Part shown: piece after piece, positions 45,484 through 53,834 of the stretch
Position numbering within the stretch: the stretch's first letter is position 1
How the letters are laid out: each line of letters starts with the position of its first letter
Source of the DNA: Lachnospiraceae bacterium
GTDB lineage: Bacteria; Bacillota; Clostridia; Lachnospirales; Lachnospiraceae
Assembly (NCBI GenBank): GCA_015057525.1
Contig: SVEE01000001.1
Span: 124,001-188,000 of the forward strand
DNA length: 64,000 bases
Direction of reading: 5' to 3'
Position numbers and translations under genes: made by a program
The notes under the pieces: generated by a model
What the model was told of the DNA's origin: nothing
The model's database searches: none
Seen by the model: only the letters and a program-made list of their open reading frames with translations

Positions 45484-45581
45484 ACTTATTGATTAATAAA
45501 AAACAATAAAATTTAATTATAAAAAATGTGAGCTAAAATCAATGAGATAATGTGCAATACAAACCACAAAGGGGGATTATT

Positions 45582-47282
45582 ATGGGTAAATCAAAAGAAA
45601 AACCACAAGACAAGCCAGCTAAGAAGAAACGCATTTTGCCGGTACTATTTATATTGCTTCTTCTTGTGGCAATAGGAGCAGGAGTATACTTTTTTGTACT
45701 TAAGCCAGATGATGAATCAGACAATAAAAAGGAAAACAAAGACACTCAGGAATCTCAGGAGCAACAAGATTCTGATGAAGGTACTCCAACTGATGCATCA
45801 ACAGAAGCCGCAAGCGATGACACTATAGCTACAAATACGGATTCCGAGACAGATACATCTGATGAAGATTCTATTTCAACAGATAATAATTCTCGTAACT
45901 TCGTTTATAACATTGATATAAATACTGTGACTCATTCTGACTTTGAGACAGGTAAGTTCTACGGTTCTTGCGATGTTCTTACCATGACAGGCGATAATTA
46001 TCCTGAACTTACAACAGCCATTAATCAATCCTTCACTACATTTTATGCAGATTACATGGCTCAAAAAGCTGATTACATAGCAGCTTCTGCAAGTGTACCA
46101 GACGGTGAAATGTATTATTATTTATATAAGAGCGTTATACCAATGCGTGCAGATGAGAAGATTTTCAGCTTCCAGAAAAAAGAGGTAAGCTACAACGGTG
46201 GTCAGACAGAAAATATATCTATTTATGGCATAAATTATGATGTAAAAACTGGTAAGAATCTTGGCCTTGGCGACTTAGGTAATATTGAGGCTGATATGCA
46301 AATTTACATGGTGAACTTCGTCCGTGACCACAATCTGTCTTCTGTAGTAGGTGAAACTTTCGCTGATGATTTATCTGCTCTTATGGAGGAAGACCCAGCT
46401 GGCCTTCCTTGGATGCTTACAGGCGACGGCATTTACGTGATATATCAGGTAAACTACAATCAGGGTTCTATAGATATGGTAATTCCATATAATGCACTTC
46501 CTGGATTTAAGGAGGAGTATCTTCCTGATGATTACAGCTTCACTCTTATTCCAGAGTATGGATGTCAGGATGACGAACTTACTGAATTTGGATATTACAC
46601 AGACTTAAATAACGACGACATAAATGAATTCCTTAAAATCGATTACGTTTATGATGATTTTGGAAGTGGCAATGGCTTGGATGTACACATTGATAATGAA
46701 GTCTATGAAGTAAGGGATATTATATTCTATGATATTGATCCATATTTGGTTAGAACTTCAGATGGTGAAATGTATCTTATAATCACTTCGCATTATGACG
46801 GTGATACCAAGGGGGTTCATTTATATAATATTTCCATGGATGGTGTAGAAAAAATTTCAAATACATATGATTCATCCATAGATTATATTTATCTTGATAC
46901 TATTGTTATGAATACTAAGATTGATAGGTTGGGTACGTTCTTTGCAACCAGAGCTTATGTAATTGGAAGTGAGGGCTTTGAACCTATTGATGCAAGATAT
47001 GATTACAATAACGGAGAAGATGTTGAGAACAGACGTTATGCTGTTGTTAAGAAACCAGTCAAAGTTAAGCTTATGCAGGGAGACAAGTTTGTTGAAACTG
47101 AGCTTGATGAAGGAACTGTTCTTTATCCTGCGAATACAGATAATGAGTCTGTAATTGGATTTTATCTTGAGGATGGCACGTATGGAGAACTTAATTTTAC
47201 TATGAGCCCTGACCGTATAACCATGCTTATTGATGGAGAGCCAGACTATGAGATATTTGACAATCTTTTCTATGCAGGTTAA
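45582..47282 (+). CDS. Membrane-anchored protein with RsiV-like (DUF3298/DUF4163-type) ectodomain
   Basis: ATG 45582 follows AAAGGGGG, giving 566 residues. A Lys-rich cytoplasmic tail of ~25 residues leads to one membrane helix (ILPVLFILLLLVAIGAGVYFF), an acidic Thr/Asp/Ser linker (to ~115) and a large extracytoplasmic domain. It contains ISIYGINYDVKTGKNLGLGDLG, the marker of the DUF3298 fold that in RsiV binds lysozyme. It ends with LYPANTDNESVIGFYLEDGTYGE, shared with the two sigma-fusion proteins at 48.8 and 51.4 kb. It is the same sensor type without the sigma part. Confidence 0.75.
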   Translation: MGKSKEKPQDKPAKKKRILPVLFILLLLVAIGAGVYFFVLKPDDESDNKKENKDTQESQEQQDSDEGTPTDASTEAASDDTIATNTDSETDTSDEDSISTDNNSRNFVYNIDINTVTHSDFETGKFYGSCDVLTMTGDNYPELTTAINQSFTTFYADYMAQKADYIAASASVPDGEMYYYLYKSVIPMRADEKIFSFQKKEVSYNGGQTENISIYGINYDVKTGKNLGLGDLGNIEADMQIYMVNFVRDHNLSSVVGETFADDLSALMEEDPAGLPWMLTGDGIYVIYQVNYNQGSIDMVIPYNALPGFKEEYLPDDYSFTLIPEYGCQDDELTEFGYYTDLNNDDINEFLKIDYVYDDFGSGNGLDVHIDNEVYEVRDIIFYDIDPYLVRTSDGEMYLIITSHYDGDTKGVHLYNISMDGVEKISNTYDSSIDYIYLDTIVMNTKIDRLGTFFATRAYVIGSEGFEPIDARYDYNNGEDVENRRYAVVKKPVKVKLMQGDKFVETELDEGTVLYPANTDNESVIGFYLEDGTYGELNFTMSPDRITMLIDGEPDYEIFDNLFYAG

Positions 47283-48638: not shown

Positions 48639-48771
48639 AAAAAGGATTGTAACTTTGATACAAGTTGAGTAAAAAGTGATATAATCATCAAGTGGTAAAT
48701 AGTGTGTAAAATTTTTTAAAATTAGACATATATAATCAAAACATAAGATTAAACCCAGGGAGGAAAATGTT

Positions 48772-51315
48772 ATGAATCAACTTTATGGAGAAATTAATAA
48801 ATTAAAACAGGGCAATTTTCAGGATTATGAAACTTTCTACAATTTAACATGCCAATACATTTACAAAATAATCAAGGATATTGTTGTTGATGACAATGCA
48901 ACTGCACAGGTGCTTACTGCTACATATAACCAGATATATCAGACAATAAACAACCTTACAGACAACAGTTTGTTTTATATGTGGGCTGGACGTATTGCCA
49001 CAGATGAGAGTCTTAAATATGTGAATGCTACCGGCAATATGTCTGTCAAGTTTGAGCCTGTAGGCGAGTTTTATGCATATCAGACGATATTTGATGACAA
49101 GGAAGCATTTGTTCCTGAAAATGTTTTGAGTGATATGGAAATTCAAAGAGTGATTCAGAATACGATAGATGGTTTATCTATTGGGTACAAGATAGTTCTT
49201 CAGTGTTTCTATTACGAGGGAATGTCTATTAATGAGATTGCTAAAAAATTAAATATTACTGAGGAGCAGGTGAGATATGCGGTTGGCTATATTAAGTCAA
49301 TATTTAGAAATATAATCAATTCTGTGCCATTTAATAATAATACCAAAATGTACAGCCTTGCCCAAATTCCAGTCTTTTGGATTATATTTAAGAATGTACT
49401 TGATTATGCAACAATGGGAGTTGTTGGAGGTGTGGCTACAGGCGGTGCTGTTGCAGGCACAGCTGCCATGACAGGCGGTAATATGGCTGGGGCAGGTGCC
49501 GCAGTAGGTGGTTCTGCAAGTGGCGGAGCTGCTGTTGGAGGAATGTCTGCAAGTGGTGGAATAACAGCTGGTGGAGCAGTATCTGGAAGTGGTGGAATAA
49601 CAGCTGGTGGTGCTGTAACAGGAGGCGCAGCAGGAGGTGCCACAGCAACAGCCGGTGGAGCGGCAGGAGGTGCAGTTGCAGGCAGTGGAGCAGCTGCAGC
49701 AGGCGCAACTGGCACAGGTATCCTTGCAACAATTGGAGGCAAAATAGCTCTTGGTGTTGCTGCAACAGCGATTCTTGCTGTAGGTGGAGTAGCAATACAT
49801 AATGCTGTGACAGAAGATGATGACGATGATAATGATAATGACGTTACAACTGAGCAGATAAGTGACGCAAGTGATACAGATGCTACACCAACAGACTTGG
49901 TTAATGAAGAAACAACAGAAGAAGTTGAACAAATTTTAGCATATGTTGAAGCTGAAGAGATATATGATATTGATATAAATAGAACTCATACTACAGATCC
50001 CAATTCAACTACGTTTTGGGCTTATTGTGATAGAATATATGTGGAAAGCACTGAGTATCCGGATTTGGCAAATAGTGTAAATACGTGGTCAGATGAATCT
50101 TATCTTCAATATGAAACAGATCTTCCAAGCTACATTGATACAGCTATTCTTATGGAGGAAAATGGTACCGATTATGGTACATATTTAGTGAGAGGATATT
50201 CTGTGGCTAGAGCCGATGATAGTGTGTTAAGCATAAAATGTAATAATGATTCTTATATGGGTGGTCCACATGGATATTTTTGGATTGATGGTGTAACCTT
50301 TGACACCCAGACAGGTCAAATTCTTAAATTAGATGATTTAGGTGATGTTAAAACTGACTTAGAAACATATATTACAAATTACATAGAAAGTACTGAAGAC
50401 ACTGAATACATGTATATGGAAACAATATCTGAGTATATTCAAAATGATACTCTTTCTTGGTTTTTGACAAGTGAAGGTGTATATGTTGTATTTAATGCCT
50501 ATGATTTAGCGGCATATGCTATGGGTTCTTTCCACATTGTTGTTCCTTATGATAAATTACCAGGAATGAATGAGAAATATGTTTTGAATAACAAGTGCGG
50601 ATTAACACAGCATTCAGGATATAGAGGATTAGCAATTGATATAGATAATGATGGTGCTACTGAATATACAAATTTTGAACAAACGGGTTATGATGAAAGT
50701 GCTTCAGGGTATACAGGAATGGACGTTATTATAGGCGACCAGACATTCTCAATAACAGGATTAAATACATACCAAACATGCGTTAAATATGTTTATAAAG
50801 CAGCAGATTCAACACGTTATCTCATTTTATCAACCATTAATGATGCTGGTGTTGGAACAATATATTTATATACATACACCAAAACAGGGGTTGAATATTT
50901 GCATCAGATAGATGGCTTTGAGCTTGGCTATATGGTTGGTGATACGCTACATCTTACAACAAGCATTAATTTACTTGGCTCATATCAGGCAGAAAGACTC
51001 TGTAAAATCGAAAATGGACAGTTTGTATTTGTAGACGATAGATTTATACTTGACAACAGTCAAAACAACCCAGGAAGAAAGTCTGTTACAACCAAGGATG
51101 TGTTGGCGGTTAAGCTTGCGTCAGATGGTTACATGGTAGATGGTGAGCTTGCAAGTGGAACAGTTATATATCCAGCTAACACTGATAATGCAACAGTTTT
51201 AGGCTTCTACCTTGAAGATGGAACCTATGGAGAAATTTATTTTGAAACTACAGACAGTGGTGTACTTTTCGACGGAAAAACAGAAGCAGAATTATTTGAT
51301 AACATAGTATATTAG
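48772..51315 (+). CDS. Membrane-tethered ECF sigma-like protein with RsiV-like ectodomain, copy 1
   Basis: 847 residues. Residues ~15-85 follow sigma region 2 (FYNLTCQYIYKIIKDIVVDD, NSLFYMWAGRIATDESLKYV). Residues ~125-185 follow region 4 with its helix-turn-helix (VIQNTIDGLSIGYKIVLQCFYYEGMSINEIAKKLNITEEQVRYAVGYI). A hydrophobic YSLAQIPVFWIIFKNVLDYA, ~100 residues of Gly/Ala/Ser and one membrane helix (~320-345) come next. An acidic linker follows, then a DUF3298-type ectodomain (VTFDTQTGQILKLDDLG ... YPANTDNATVLGFYLEDGTYGE). Sigma and sensor on one chain suggest release by proteolysis or membrane-bound activity. The architecture is read directly; the mechanism is inferred. Confidence 0.82.
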   Translation: MNQLYGEINKLKQGNFQDYETFYNLTCQYIYKIIKDIVVDDNATAQVLTATYNQIYQTINNLTDNSLFYMWAGRIATDESLKYVNATGNMSVKFEPVGEFYAYQTIFDDKEAFVPENVLSDMEIQRVIQNTIDGLSIGYKIVLQCFYYEGMSINEIAKKLNITEEQVRYAVGYIKSIFRNIINSVPFNNNTKMYSLAQIPVFWIIFKNVLDYATMGVVGGVATGGAVAGTAAMTGGNMAGAGAAVGGSASGGAAVGGMSASGGITAGGAVSGSGGITAGGAVTGGAAGGATATAGGAAGGAVAGSGAAAAGATGTGILATIGGKIALGVAATAILAVGGVAIHNAVTEDDDDDNDNDVTTEQISDASDTDATPTDLVNEETTEEVEQILAYVEAEEIYDIDINRTHTTDPNSTTFWAYCDRIYVESTEYPDLANSVNTWSDESYLQYETDLPSYIDTAILMEENGTDYGTYLVRGYSVARADDSVLSIKCNNDSYMGGPHGYFWIDGVTFDTQTGQILKLDDLGDVKTDLETYITNYIESTEDTEYMYMETISEYIQNDTLSWFLTSEGVYVVFNAYDLAAYAMGSFHIVVPYDKLPGMNEKYVLNNKCGLTQHSGYRGLAIDIDNDGATEYTNFEQTGYDESASGYTGMDVIIGDQTFSITGLNTYQTCVKYVYKAADSTRYLILSTINDAGVGTIYLYTYTKTGVEYLHQIDGFELGYMVGDTLHLTTSINLLGSYQAERLCKIENGQFVFVDDRFILDNSQNNPGRKSVTTKDVLAVKLASDGYMVDGELASGTVIYPANTDNATVLGFYLEDGTYGEIYFETTDSGVLFDGKTEAELFDNIVY

Positions 51316-51350
51316 GAGTAATTCTGCACAAGTAATAGGAGGACATTAAT

Positions 51351-53834
51351 ATGAACAATCAGCTTGAATTAGAAATACAAAAGCTAAAACAGGGAAATTT
51401 TAATGACTATGAAGCTTTCTATAATTTAACATGTCAATACATTTACAAAATAATCAAGGATATTGTTATTGATGATAACGCAACTGCACAGGTTGTCACA
51501 ACCACATATAATCAGATATATAACACAATAAATACTCTTATGGATGATAGTTTATTCTATATGTGGTCTGGACGTATTGCTACAGAGGAAAGTATTAAAT
51601 ATGTAAACTCTACAGGCACTGTGCCCATGGAATTTGAGACTGTAGGCGAGCTTTACGCTCATGATAATATTTTTCAGGACCAGGAAGCATTTATACCTGA
51701 GAATGTTTTGAACAATATGGAAGTCCAGAGAGTAATTCAGAACACCATTGATGGCTTAGCTGTTGGATATAAGATTGTTCTTCAGTGCTTCTACTACGAG
51801 GGAATGTCCATTAAGGAGATTGCGGAGAGATTAAATATTACTGAGGAGCAGGTGAAATATGCTGTAGGATATATCAAGGCAATGTTTAAGGACATAATTA
51901 ATTCTGTACCATTTAATAATAATACCAAAATGTACAGCCTTGCCCAAATTCCAGTTTTTTGGATTATATTTAAGAATGTGCTTGATTATGCCACTATGGG
52001 AGTAGTTGGTGGTATTGTCGCAGGTGGTGCTGTTGGTGGAACAGCTGCCGTCGCAGGTGGTGGACAGGCTGCTGGAACTGGTGCTGCTATAGGAGGTTCA
52101 GCTGCAGGAAATGGAATCTCGGCAGGAAGTGGTATGGCTGCTGGAAATGGAATCTCAGCAGGAAGTGGTATGGCTGCTGGAAATGGAATCTCAGCAGGAA
52201 GCGGAGCTGCAGCAGGTGGTGCAGTTGCAGGTAGTGGAGCAACTGCTGCAGGAGCAACTGGCACAGGTATCCTTGCAACAATTGGAGGCAAAATAGCTCT
52301 TGGTGTTGCCGCAACAGCGATTCTTGCTGTTGGTGGTGTAGCAATACATAATGCTGTCACAGAGGATGAGGACAATGATAACGATATTACAACTGAGCAA
52401 ATTAGCAACGCGAGTGACACAGACGCAACTCCTACAGATATGATTGAAAATACAACAGAAGAAATCACAGAGGAAATTCCAGAAGTGGTATATAAGGATG
52501 ATGCCCAGTATACATTTAAAGAGAAATCTGTAAGCCAAAATAAAGACAATGTAGGTGGATTTCAATTTGATTATCTAACTGTTGAAGGCGAGGGCTACGA
52601 GGCGTTGACTGCATCTGTTGATAGTTGGAATGAAGAAATGATATTACAGTACAACGACAGATTTGATACGATTTTTGCGCAGTTTAGTAGTGGTTGGCAT
52701 TTCTATACTGACAGCTATATTGTAAATAGAGCAGATGATAGAGTGTTAAGTGTGGAGGTTTTTGAATCTTCATATCAAGATGAGGTTAAGGAATCGGTTA
52801 TTTCTACAGCAACATTTGATGTTGTCACAGGAGATAGATTAAGTATAGATGATTTAGGTGATGTAAAGAGCGATATTAAGGCGTATGTTCTTTCGTATAT
52901 TAATACAAATAATTTGGCGGTTAATTTAGATGCAGATTATGAAAGTAAGTTGGATGCTGTTTTAGATGGAAATTTAAAATGGTCTTTGTGCGGTGAAGAG
53001 TTAAAGGTTGTATTTAAAATTGGTGATTTGGGTTCTTCTGATGCTAGCTTTTTCGTAGTATATATTCCATATGACCAATTGCCAGGATTGGAAGACAAAT
53101 ACATAGGAAGTGTGGAAAATTACTACACAGTTCTCAATGAGAATGAAGTACATTATCTTGACTTAGATGACAATGGAACTGATGAAGAAGTAAAAGCGTG
53201 GATTATTAAAGAAGAATATGGAAATACAGGATTTTATATTACTATAAATGGTAATACCTATAGCTCGTCAGTTATGCATTTTTACGTACAGGAAATGTAC
53301 GCATACAAGGTGAAAAATCAAGGGTATATACTCATTCTTTCTACAGTGGGGGATAGTGATTGGCGTAATCTATATTTTTATAATTTGACACCTAGTGGTG
53401 TTACACTTATTTGCGAGCAAGAAGGAGGAGTAGATGATTTCATTGGGAACTACGCACATGTTTCTGATAGAATACATTGCTTTGGCTCATTTAGATACAC
53501 TGTAAATACAATGATAACATCGACAGGTTATAGTATTATAGATGACAGATATTCTTTCAATGTAGCTGAGAATCTGGCAGATGAAACTAGATGTCCAATA
53601 GCTAAGCAACCTGTAAATGTGAAGATAATGCAGAATGGGACTCTTGTGGATTACGTTCTTCCTGTAGGAGCTAAGATATATCCTGTAAATACAGATTTAT
53701 CTAAAACAACGCTTGGGTTTTACTTAGAGGATGGTACCTATGGAGAATTAACATATGAGCTTATAGACTATACGAGATATATAAATGGAGTTTCGGAGCA
53801 TGAATTATTTGATAATCTCATATACGTAAGTTAA
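51351..53834 (+). CDS. Membrane-tethered ECF sigma-like protein with RsiV-like ectodomain, copy 2
   Basis: 827 residues, 35 bp after copy 1, behind AGGAGG. The cytoplasmic part repeats copy 1 closely: sigma region 2, the region 4 motif MSIKEIAERLNITEEQVKYAVGYI, then the nearly identical YSLAQIPVFWIIFKNVLDYATMGVVGG. The Gly/Ala stretch contains three 12-residue repeats (GNGISAGSGMAA type). The membrane helix GVAATAILAVGGVAIHNAV is the same. The ectodomain is diverged but keeps ATFDVVTGDRLSIDDLG and IYPVNTD...LGFYLEDGTYGE. Conserved output with divergent sensing suggests two inputs to a similar regulon. Confidence 0.82.
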   Translation: MNNQLELEIQKLKQGNFNDYEAFYNLTCQYIYKIIKDIVIDDNATAQVVTTTYNQIYNTINTLMDDSLFYMWSGRIATEESIKYVNSTGTVPMEFETVGELYAHDNIFQDQEAFIPENVLNNMEVQRVIQNTIDGLAVGYKIVLQCFYYEGMSIKEIAERLNITEEQVKYAVGYIKAMFKDIINSVPFNNNTKMYSLAQIPVFWIIFKNVLDYATMGVVGGIVAGGAVGGTAAVAGGGQAAGTGAAIGGSAAGNGISAGSGMAAGNGISAGSGMAAGNGISAGSGAAAGGAVAGSGATAAGATGTGILATIGGKIALGVAATAILAVGGVAIHNAVTEDEDNDNDITTEQISNASDTDATPTDMIENTTEEITEEIPEVVYKDDAQYTFKEKSVSQNKDNVGGFQFDYLTVEGEGYEALTASVDSWNEEMILQYNDRFDTIFAQFSSGWHFYTDSYIVNRADDRVLSVEVFESSYQDEVKESVISTATFDVVTGDRLSIDDLGDVKSDIKAYVLSYINTNNLAVNLDADYESKLDAVLDGNLKWSLCGEELKVVFKIGDLGSSDASFFVVYIPYDQLPGLEDKYIGSVENYYTVLNENEVHYLDLDDNGTDEEVKAWIIKEEYGNTGFYITINGNTYSSSVMHFYVQEMYAYKVKNQGYILILSTVGDSDWRNLYFYNLTPSGVTLICEQEGGVDDFIGNYAHVSDRIHCFGSFRYTVNTMITSTGYSIIDDRYSFNVAENLADETRCPIAKQPVNVKIMQNGTLVDYVLPVGAKIYPVNTDLSKTTLGFYLEDGTYGELTYELIDYTRYINGVSEHELFDNLIYVS
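52101..52208 (+). repeat. 36-bp in-frame tandem repeat (three units)
   Basis: Units at 52101-52136, 52137-52172 and 52173-52208 encode a repeated AAGNGISAGSGM-type block in the Gly/Ala spacer of the second sigma-fusion gene. The copy number could vary by slippage, changing tether length. Confidence 0.85.

Follow-up and report, generated by a model that had tools for sequence, protein, structure and literature searches.

Degenerate ECF sigma heads on tandem membrane proteins of a Lachnospiraceae bacterium: candidate pseudo-sigma receptors

Membrane-fused sigma factors and the tandem pair

Sigma factors of the extracytoplasmic function (ECF) type that carry their own membrane anchor have been described. 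IutY (ECF243) of Pseudomonas putida joins an ECF sigma N terminus to a C-terminal membrane-bound regulatory part and is freed by intramembrane proteolysis, and in the actinobacterial groups ECF48, ECF52 and ECF53 (SCO4117) a single chain carries a sigma head and one or two transmembrane (TM) helices, separated by a zinc-finger anti-sigma domain; for IutY sigma release has been shown, for ECF48/52/53 it has been proposed, and SCO4117 also has an extracytoplasmic domain (PMC8999054). Here we describe two adjacent genes of a Lachnospiraceae bacterium (GenBank assembly GCA_015057525.1, contig SVEE01000001.1, positions 124,001 to 188,000). This stretch of 64,000 nucleotides is referred to below as the window, and positions are counted from its first letter. 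The products of both genes follow the TM-fused plan, having a sigma head, a C-terminal TM helix and an extracytoplasmic part as judged by hydropathy and, for protein 2, an AlphaFold2 (AF2) model. Because IutY and ECF48/52/53 are already TM fused, the concept is not new, and the clostridial family to which the pair belongs is a variant of it.

The initial annotation described the pair as tandem membrane-tethered sigma factors with RsiV-like ectodomains and proposed a one-component, membrane-held sigma switch. The observation that a sigma fold, a linker, a TM helix and an ectodomain lie on one chain holds; the interpretation needs correcting. The two proteins are more likely to be pseudo-sigma receptors than one-component sigma switches. 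On the sequence evidence, we give an even chance to the reading that their heads act as binding modules, of which sigma mimicry would be the best concrete form.

Like IutY, the window pair has a sigma head and a membrane-bound part on one chain; it differs in that its heads are without the sigma contact residues and its ectodomains are RsiV-like, whereas IutY acts in iron starvation cell-surface signalling and has a FecR-like ectodomain. Unlike in ECF48/52/53, no anti-sigma zinc finger was matched in the pair by Pfam at E ≤ 1. PhyR, an alphaproteobacterial sigma mimic in which a sigma-like domain is fused to a sensory part and which acts on an anti-sigma factor, is a real precedent for mimicry. 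The window pair, whose heads keep the sigma fold and have lost contact residues, resembles PhyR in fusing a sigma-like domain to a sensory part, but PhyR has a response-regulator (receiver) domain and the partner NepR, and Pfam gave no receiver domain in either window protein. RsiV of Bacillus subtilis, the lysozyme receptor and anti-sigmaV, has a TM helix with a DUF4163 plus DUF3298 ectodomain (PMC5014341). The pair shares a TM helix and an ectodomain of that type, and the protein 1 model matches the RsiV structure 5jen; however, the cytoplasmic part of RsiV is an anti-sigma, where the window pair has a sigma fold, and the pair has a further beta-rich C-terminal part. Within the same genome, a 523-amino-acid (aa) paralogue on contig C5 has the same plan of head, latch, linker and TM helix, but its residues in regions 2.2 and 4.2 are canonical, and a promoter element of the family type precedes it. 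No paper on this Lachnospiraceae sigma-TM family or on sigma-DUF3298 fusions was found in searches limited to an open-licence library, and a gut sensor survey contained none of the sigma terms sought (PMC11237719); the family may be listed in the published ECF re-classification.

The two open reading frames lie in tandem as annotated, each with a Gly/Ala-rich stretch and a single membrane helix:

48772..51315, + strand: protein 1 gene, an open reading frame of 847 aa encoding a degenerate ECF sigma head, a latch motif, a Gly/Ala linker and a TM helix and, on its C-terminal side, a DUF4163/DUF3298-like ectodomain and then an extra beta-rich C-terminal part
48772..49041, + strand: protein 1 sigma region 2-like part, aa 1-90
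49150..49341, + strand: protein 1 sigma region 4-like part, aa 127-190, with recognition helix EEQVRYAVGYIK
49342..49437, + strand: protein 1 conserved post-sigma4 latch, KMYSLAQIPVFWIIF
49438..49731, + strand: protein 1 Gly/Ala-rich linker
49732..49809, + strand: protein 1 TM helix, Kyte-Doolittle value 2.07
49954..51312, + strand: protein 1 ectodomain, its first half RsiV/DUF3298-like
51351..53834, + strand: protein 2 gene, 827 aa, tandem paralogue of protein 1
51351..51923, + strand: protein 2 degenerate sigma head, aa 1-191
52278..52358, + strand: protein 2 TM helix, aa ~310-336, by hydropathy and the AF2 model
52518..53831, + strand: protein 2 ectodomain, homologous by alignment with that of protein 1

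By pairwise alignment, the two proteins are 78% identical in the sigma head and about 33 to 34% identical in the ectodomain. Directly after sigma4, both carry a latch with the consensus K-M-Y-S-L-x-x-x-P. Hydropathy gives one clear membrane helix per protein, with a second, weak peak (1.64) in protein 2 where the Gly/Ala stretch begins, and the 26 codons of the TM helix specify identical amino acids in the two copies. Read from the sequence, a Lys before the helix and an Asp-rich stretch after it suggest that the N terminus of protein 1 lies inside.

Fold, residue loss and selection in the sigma heads

ECF profiles match the N termini of both proteins. NCBIfam NF008888 gave 2e-17 for protein 1 and 2.6e-16 for protein 2, far below the model's own cut-off; TIGR02937 gave 5.3e-11 and 1.5e-10, just under its cut-off in the per-protein search; and Pfam Sigma70_r4_2 was above cut-off in both. 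The annotated ECF regions 2 and 4 stand on these profiles, with TIGR02937 borderline, and on a fold like that of SigW and sigmaE, but not on Pfam Sigma70_r2, which found nothing in either protein even at E ≤ 1. The same profile matched 51 of the 61 family members scanned with Pfam at 1e-3 (a set without L027 and including L064, a match to the contig of L012). Its cut-off was passed by L007, L010 and L012 and by none of the degenerate rows L004, L005, L006, L013, L014, L023 and L063, among which L004 and L023 gave sub-threshold matches.

Against sequences in the Protein Data Bank (PDB), protein 2 matched sigma-H, sigma-E and SigW. An AF2 model of its residues 1 to 350, built from a 12-row alignment, had a mean predicted local distance difference test score (pLDDT) of 57 overall and about 80 in the head; sigma2 and sigma4 were folded, a helix was placed at the TM segment, and the Gly/Ala linker was structureless (pLDDT < 50). 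The modelled head contains just two strands, FIP (aa 114-116) in the sigma2-4 linker and MYS (aa 194-196) in the latch, which presumably pair with each other. Foldseek returned three matches at E ≤ 1e-3, two entries of SigW/RsiW and one of sigmaE/RseA, and TM-scores (template modelling scores) were higher for anti-sigma-bound sigmas than for sigmas bound to RNA polymerase, the domain orientation in the model being unsure.

Relatives were drawn from 61 genomes: that of the window, 36 of the same genus and 24 of the same order. Protein 2 as the query matched 44 of these at E ≤ 1e-3, and the loci taken from those matches yielded 60 sigma-like rows, made up of 55 long frames and 5 short soluble ECFs. 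All of the long sigma-TM frames come from the window's own genome (six) and its genus, and each shows a hydropathy peak of more than 1.6 on the C-terminal side of its sigma head; the short soluble ECFs come from other families of the order and have no such peak. The architecture survey suggested with the initial annotation thus found the fused sigma-TM plan to be common to the family. Family rows exclude frames shorter than about 420 aa and others (for example, G031:C399 and G028:C85), as well as L025, which is truncated at the end of its contig; a truncated copy of protein 2 (L001_4068) was removed before alignment. The six genes of the window's own genome are the window pair and those on contigs C5, C7, C8 and C6, the last with a region 2-like part only. 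This C6 paralogue (L006, C6:6947-7528) is 497 aa long and has a sigma2-like part followed by a TM helix, region 4 being missing.

Rows were labelled intact, partial or degenerate by the region 2.2 triad at positions 47, 50 and 51 (protein 2 numbering), so that conservation of the triad in intact rows is by construction and independent evidence comes only from positions 79, 167 and 171 and from charge. The 60 rows divided into 42 intact, 7 partial and 11 degenerate, and the 55 long rows into 38, 6 and 11, the label of one of the last (L027) reflecting only a short 5' end. Region 2.2 of protein 1 reads QVLTATY, as against DxxQ(E/D)xY in intact members; D47, Q50 and E51, which serve in core binding, are changed in both window copies. 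Outside the labelling triad, both copies have also lost N79, a -10 contact, and T167 and R171, the -35 contacts of the recognition helix, which are replaced by Gln and Ala, respectively; for individual residues of regions 2.2, 2.4 and 4.2, contact roles are presumed here to be as in Escherichia coli sigmaE. The net charge of regions 2.3 to 2.4 is about -0.5 in the window pair, compared with +4.5 in 35 intact TM rows, +4.3 in the 3 sister rows and +4.6 in the 5 soluble ECFs. The pair has kept 36 of 43 hydrophobic, Gly or Pro positions and 7 of 15 polar ones; the sister rows have kept 43 of 45 polar cells.

These losses bear directly on the possibility that the pair are genuine one-component ECF sigmas, in which an envelope signal would lead intramembrane proteolysis to free a divergent but active head with unusual contacts and an unusual promoter. 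The match of ECF profiles over both regions, the purifying selection on the head described below, a new region 4.2 helix that is largely the same in both aligned copies, and the precedents of IutY and, by proposal, ECF52 (PMC8999054) are consistent with such a switch; the genome also has one M50 protease gene, although so do 14 of 14 control genomes. Against it stand the change of all six contact residues in both copies and the loss of positive charge in regions 2.3 to 2.4, and regions 2.1 and 2.2 are those that bind the beta-prime clamp helices (PMC7406223). We judge active sigma factors to be unlikely here, while counting them a serious contender. For the intact relatives, which make up 38 of the 55 long rows and have a promoter element at 17 of 36, as shown below, the proposed one-component switch remains a reasonable interpretation; for the window pair it is doubtful.

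In a tree built without L006 and L027, seven degenerate rows group in one clade with support of 99/97, which adjoins three intact rows, with support of 100/99. The clade comprises the window pair, the C7 and C8 paralogues and a single row from each of three further genomes, so that four genomes (G000, G006, G007 and G035) contribute to it. In a second tree, from which the long-branch rows L005, L013, L023, L034, L036 and L063 were also left out, the five remaining clade rows still group (99/96).

The ratio of nonsynonymous to synonymous substitution rates (dN/dS) between the sigma heads of proteins 1 and 2 is 0.13 at a dS of 0.93 by the NG86 method (YN00 0.13/0.73, about 0.18). The NG86 ratio is 0.07 in sigma4, lower than in sigma2 (0.13), 0.07 in the latch and 0.42 in the Gly/Ala linker; the TM helix has no amino acid change, and the ectodomain, at 34% identity and a high dS, has a ratio of about 0.5. 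Since a head ratio of about 0.13 at a dS of about 0.9 means that the altered head is itself constrained, the head is, by these substitution rates, under purifying selection. The low dS in the latch and TM helix could reflect partial gene conversion.

These rates largely refute the idea that the pair are decaying duplicates drifting toward pseudogenes, which we rejected as very improbable. The loss of key motifs and the related L006 without region 4 could be taken as signs of decay, but both frames are open over more than 820 codons, the head is constrained, the TM helix is identical in the two copies and the degenerate clade is found in four genomes. A further reading takes the pair as membrane-bound DNA-binding regulators, modelled on one-component regulators of the ToxR/CadC type, in which the helix-turn-helix of the sigma4-like part would act on DNA without RNA polymerase. 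The Sigma70_r4_2 matches above cut-off and the stronger constraint on sigma4 than on sigma2 fit this reading; however, it gives no reason for keeping the sigma2 fold, and the change of Thr167 and Arg171 to Gln and Ala and a helix-region net charge of about 0 (only +0.6 in intact TM members) speak against it, so that we regard it as quite unlikely. What probability remains for the pair falls to something else.

Promoter elements and a proposed mechanism

Upstream of many intact members lies an ECF-type element, CAA(C/T)-spacer-TCT(A/T)TA. Among rows with usable upstream DNA (which excludes the intact L061 and L046 and the degenerate L013), it was present in 17 of 36 intact, 0 of 6 partial and 0 of 10 degenerate rows, compared with 0 to 8 hits per 200 dinucleotide shuffles per row; the pattern was derived from the same sequences in which it was counted, and near-identical orthologues were counted separately. 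All 17 element-bearing rows fall in a 31-row intact clade. Its occurrence at 17 of 36 intact rows suggests that intact members are autoregulated through an ECF-type promoter. The C5 paralogue has a looser match upstream, and no motif match was found in the window, where about one would be expected by chance, nor was the family motif found in the 200 bases upstream of protein 1. That gene may instead have a housekeeping promoter, which was read by eye, its 19-nucleotide spacer being outside the rule used in the housekeeping-promoter search:

48655..48685, + strand: possible housekeeping promoter of protein 1, TTGATA, 19 nucleotides, extended -10 TGaTATAAT (48680-48685)

Upstream of protein 1, and also by eye, the AT-rich stretch at 48700-48745 looks like the family promoter's spacer, the two hexamers being altered; it could be a decayed self-promoter or chance.

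Building on the architecture, the family, the residue loss, the selection and the promoter motif of the relatives, all read from the sequences, we infer a mechanism that would involve release, autoregulation, mimicry and a partner. The family, best represented in a single Lachnospiraceae genus, has a plan of cytoplasmic ECF sigma head, latch, Gly/Ala linker, TM helix and variable ectodomain, which would make its members single-pass receptors. Those with intact heads are probably genuine ECF sigmas that stay at the membrane until a signal from outside frees or exposes them, and many of these probably drive transcription of the genes that encode them. Sigmas of this kind would be the ancestors of the window pair, which has lost the residues that contact RNA polymerase and the promoter while keeping, under purifying selection, the fold, the latch and the TM helix. 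Its head may serve as a protein-binding module whose target would be an anti-sigma element or an intact paralogue's latch, and binding of this kind would couple an RsiV-like ectodomain to another sigma. We offer only tentatively, and think somewhat more apt to be wrong than right, the wider proposal of a clostridial class of membrane receptors with a pseudo-sigma output, signalling by mimicry to intact sigma paralogues that are held at the membrane and activate themselves.

Several observations weigh against the pseudo-sigma reading. In the genome search, TIGR02937 scored 47.5 and 44.1 bits against a cut-off of 42.9 and so was just over it for both heads. The loss of contact residues is not total, as region 2.3 retains Trp72, Ile76 and Ala77, and the change at Arg176 is only to Lys. 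Long branches meet in the tree, as the tree program warned, and 4 of the 11 degenerate rows are outside the clade, L023 and L063 being placed elsewhere and L006 and L027 not being in the tree. None of the three intact sister rows of the window clade carries the promoter element (0/3); its absence at protein 1 is thus no proof of switching and may reflect ancestry rather than loss. No partner of the window-pair heads was identified, and no partner search was made. The exact form CCAACC-N17-19-TCTATAT had 33 matches in the 61 genomes, compared with 29 in a backward control, and so was not enriched, and a genome-wide regulon defined by the promoter pattern was rejected, its looser form giving 6 matches in the window's own genome and 10 in the backward control. 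As matches do not exceed the backward control, only position beside sigma-TM genes is informative: of 30 exact matches examined among the 33, 9 had the first Met of a sigma-TM gene 33 to 208 bases past the motif start, where three of the motifs occur twice or nearly so and some of the genes are orthologues with the same motif.

Under this wider proposal, the class would be a counterpart of pseudokinase receptors, its cytoplasmic module being conserved and its ectodomain quick to change. If the mechanism is correct, the sigma factor would serve one genus as a scaffold for receptors, one inner module being joined to many outer sensors, and one branch would have turned into non-polymerase partners, giving a sigma-mimicry route outside the Alphaproteobacteria that is accessible to experiments with small soluble fragments. 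For intact members, the ECF-type promoter predicted here would serve as a direct reporter.

The element was also seen near other genes. In two alike lipoprotein-like genes (L099 and L115, in G006 and G035), the first Met lies 125 and 160 bases, respectively, beyond the element start; these genes are candidate targets. In G010 (L097), an element lies about 300 bases before the gene for a 182-aa membrane protein, behind sigma-TM and lipoprotein-like genes, and this gene is a possible target. In the window's own genome, an exact element (L082/L092, C5:62312-62342) is located shortly after the end of the intact sigma-TM gene on C5; no open reading frame of at least 70 aa follows it in the stretch examined, and it may belong to a small gene, an RNA or a remnant.

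Ectodomains, wider relatives and the upstream receptor

The annotated DUF3298-type ectodomain held for protein 1, by Pfam and by fold; protein 2, which had no DUF3298 match at E ≤ 1 and no Pfam match of its own for the ectodomain, is linked to it only through the alignment with protein 1 at about 33% identity. In protein 1, Pfam DUF3298 was above cut-off (4.2e-9) and DUF4163 (PdaC) below it (0.005), and this protein was the sole DUF3298 match in its genome at E ≤ 0.01. The annotated (V/T)FDxxTG motif is present in both proteins as TFDxxTG. For the protein 1 ectodomain, an AF2 model based on a three-row alignment (mean pLDDT 67) matched 3cyg, 3s5t, RsiV (5jen, 1.4e-4) and 4e72 at E ≤ 1e-3; by sequence, the three-row ectodomain profile matched 3cyg and 3s5t and gave no match to RsiV at E ≤ 1. 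Residues S169, P259 and Y261 of RsiV are known for lysozyme contact (PMC5014341). The C-terminal half of the ectodomain in the pair and in the upstream receptor described below is beta-rich in the model and has a conserved motif of the LGFYLEDGTYGE type at its end; no convincing match covering this half was found.

Across the 61 scanned family proteins, ectodomain Pfam matches at E ≤ 1e-3 were few and varied (WG repeats, 2; FG-GAP, 2; LRR_5, 2; CAP, 1; DUF3298, 1; EF-hand, 1), so that at least 52 of the 61 had none. Judged by these sequences, the family ectodomains are diverse. Some sigma-TM relatives read as having WG-repeat ectodomains (L069, L070 and L073) or a CAP ectodomain (L072), placing very different sensors on one cytoplasmic module.

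Beyond the 61 genomes, a broad head profile at E ≤ 1e-8 matched 143 of 150 genomes, each of which stands for one genus of the family. Among the matches listed, the best 24 rows are frames of at least 445 aa, 19 of them outside the window's genus, as judged by length only, and most of the rows that follow are short. A narrow profile at E ≤ 1e-20 matched 26 of 291 genomes of the class, 10 of which, the window's own included, have a matching frame longer than 450 aa.

A related receptor without a sigma head is encoded two genes upstream of the pair:

45552..47282, + strand: related receptor without a sigma head, with a short basic tail, its own TM helix and a homologous ectodomain

Its ectodomain is 32% identical to that of protein 1 and 30% identical to that of protein 2, and it is a possible co-receptor or decoy.

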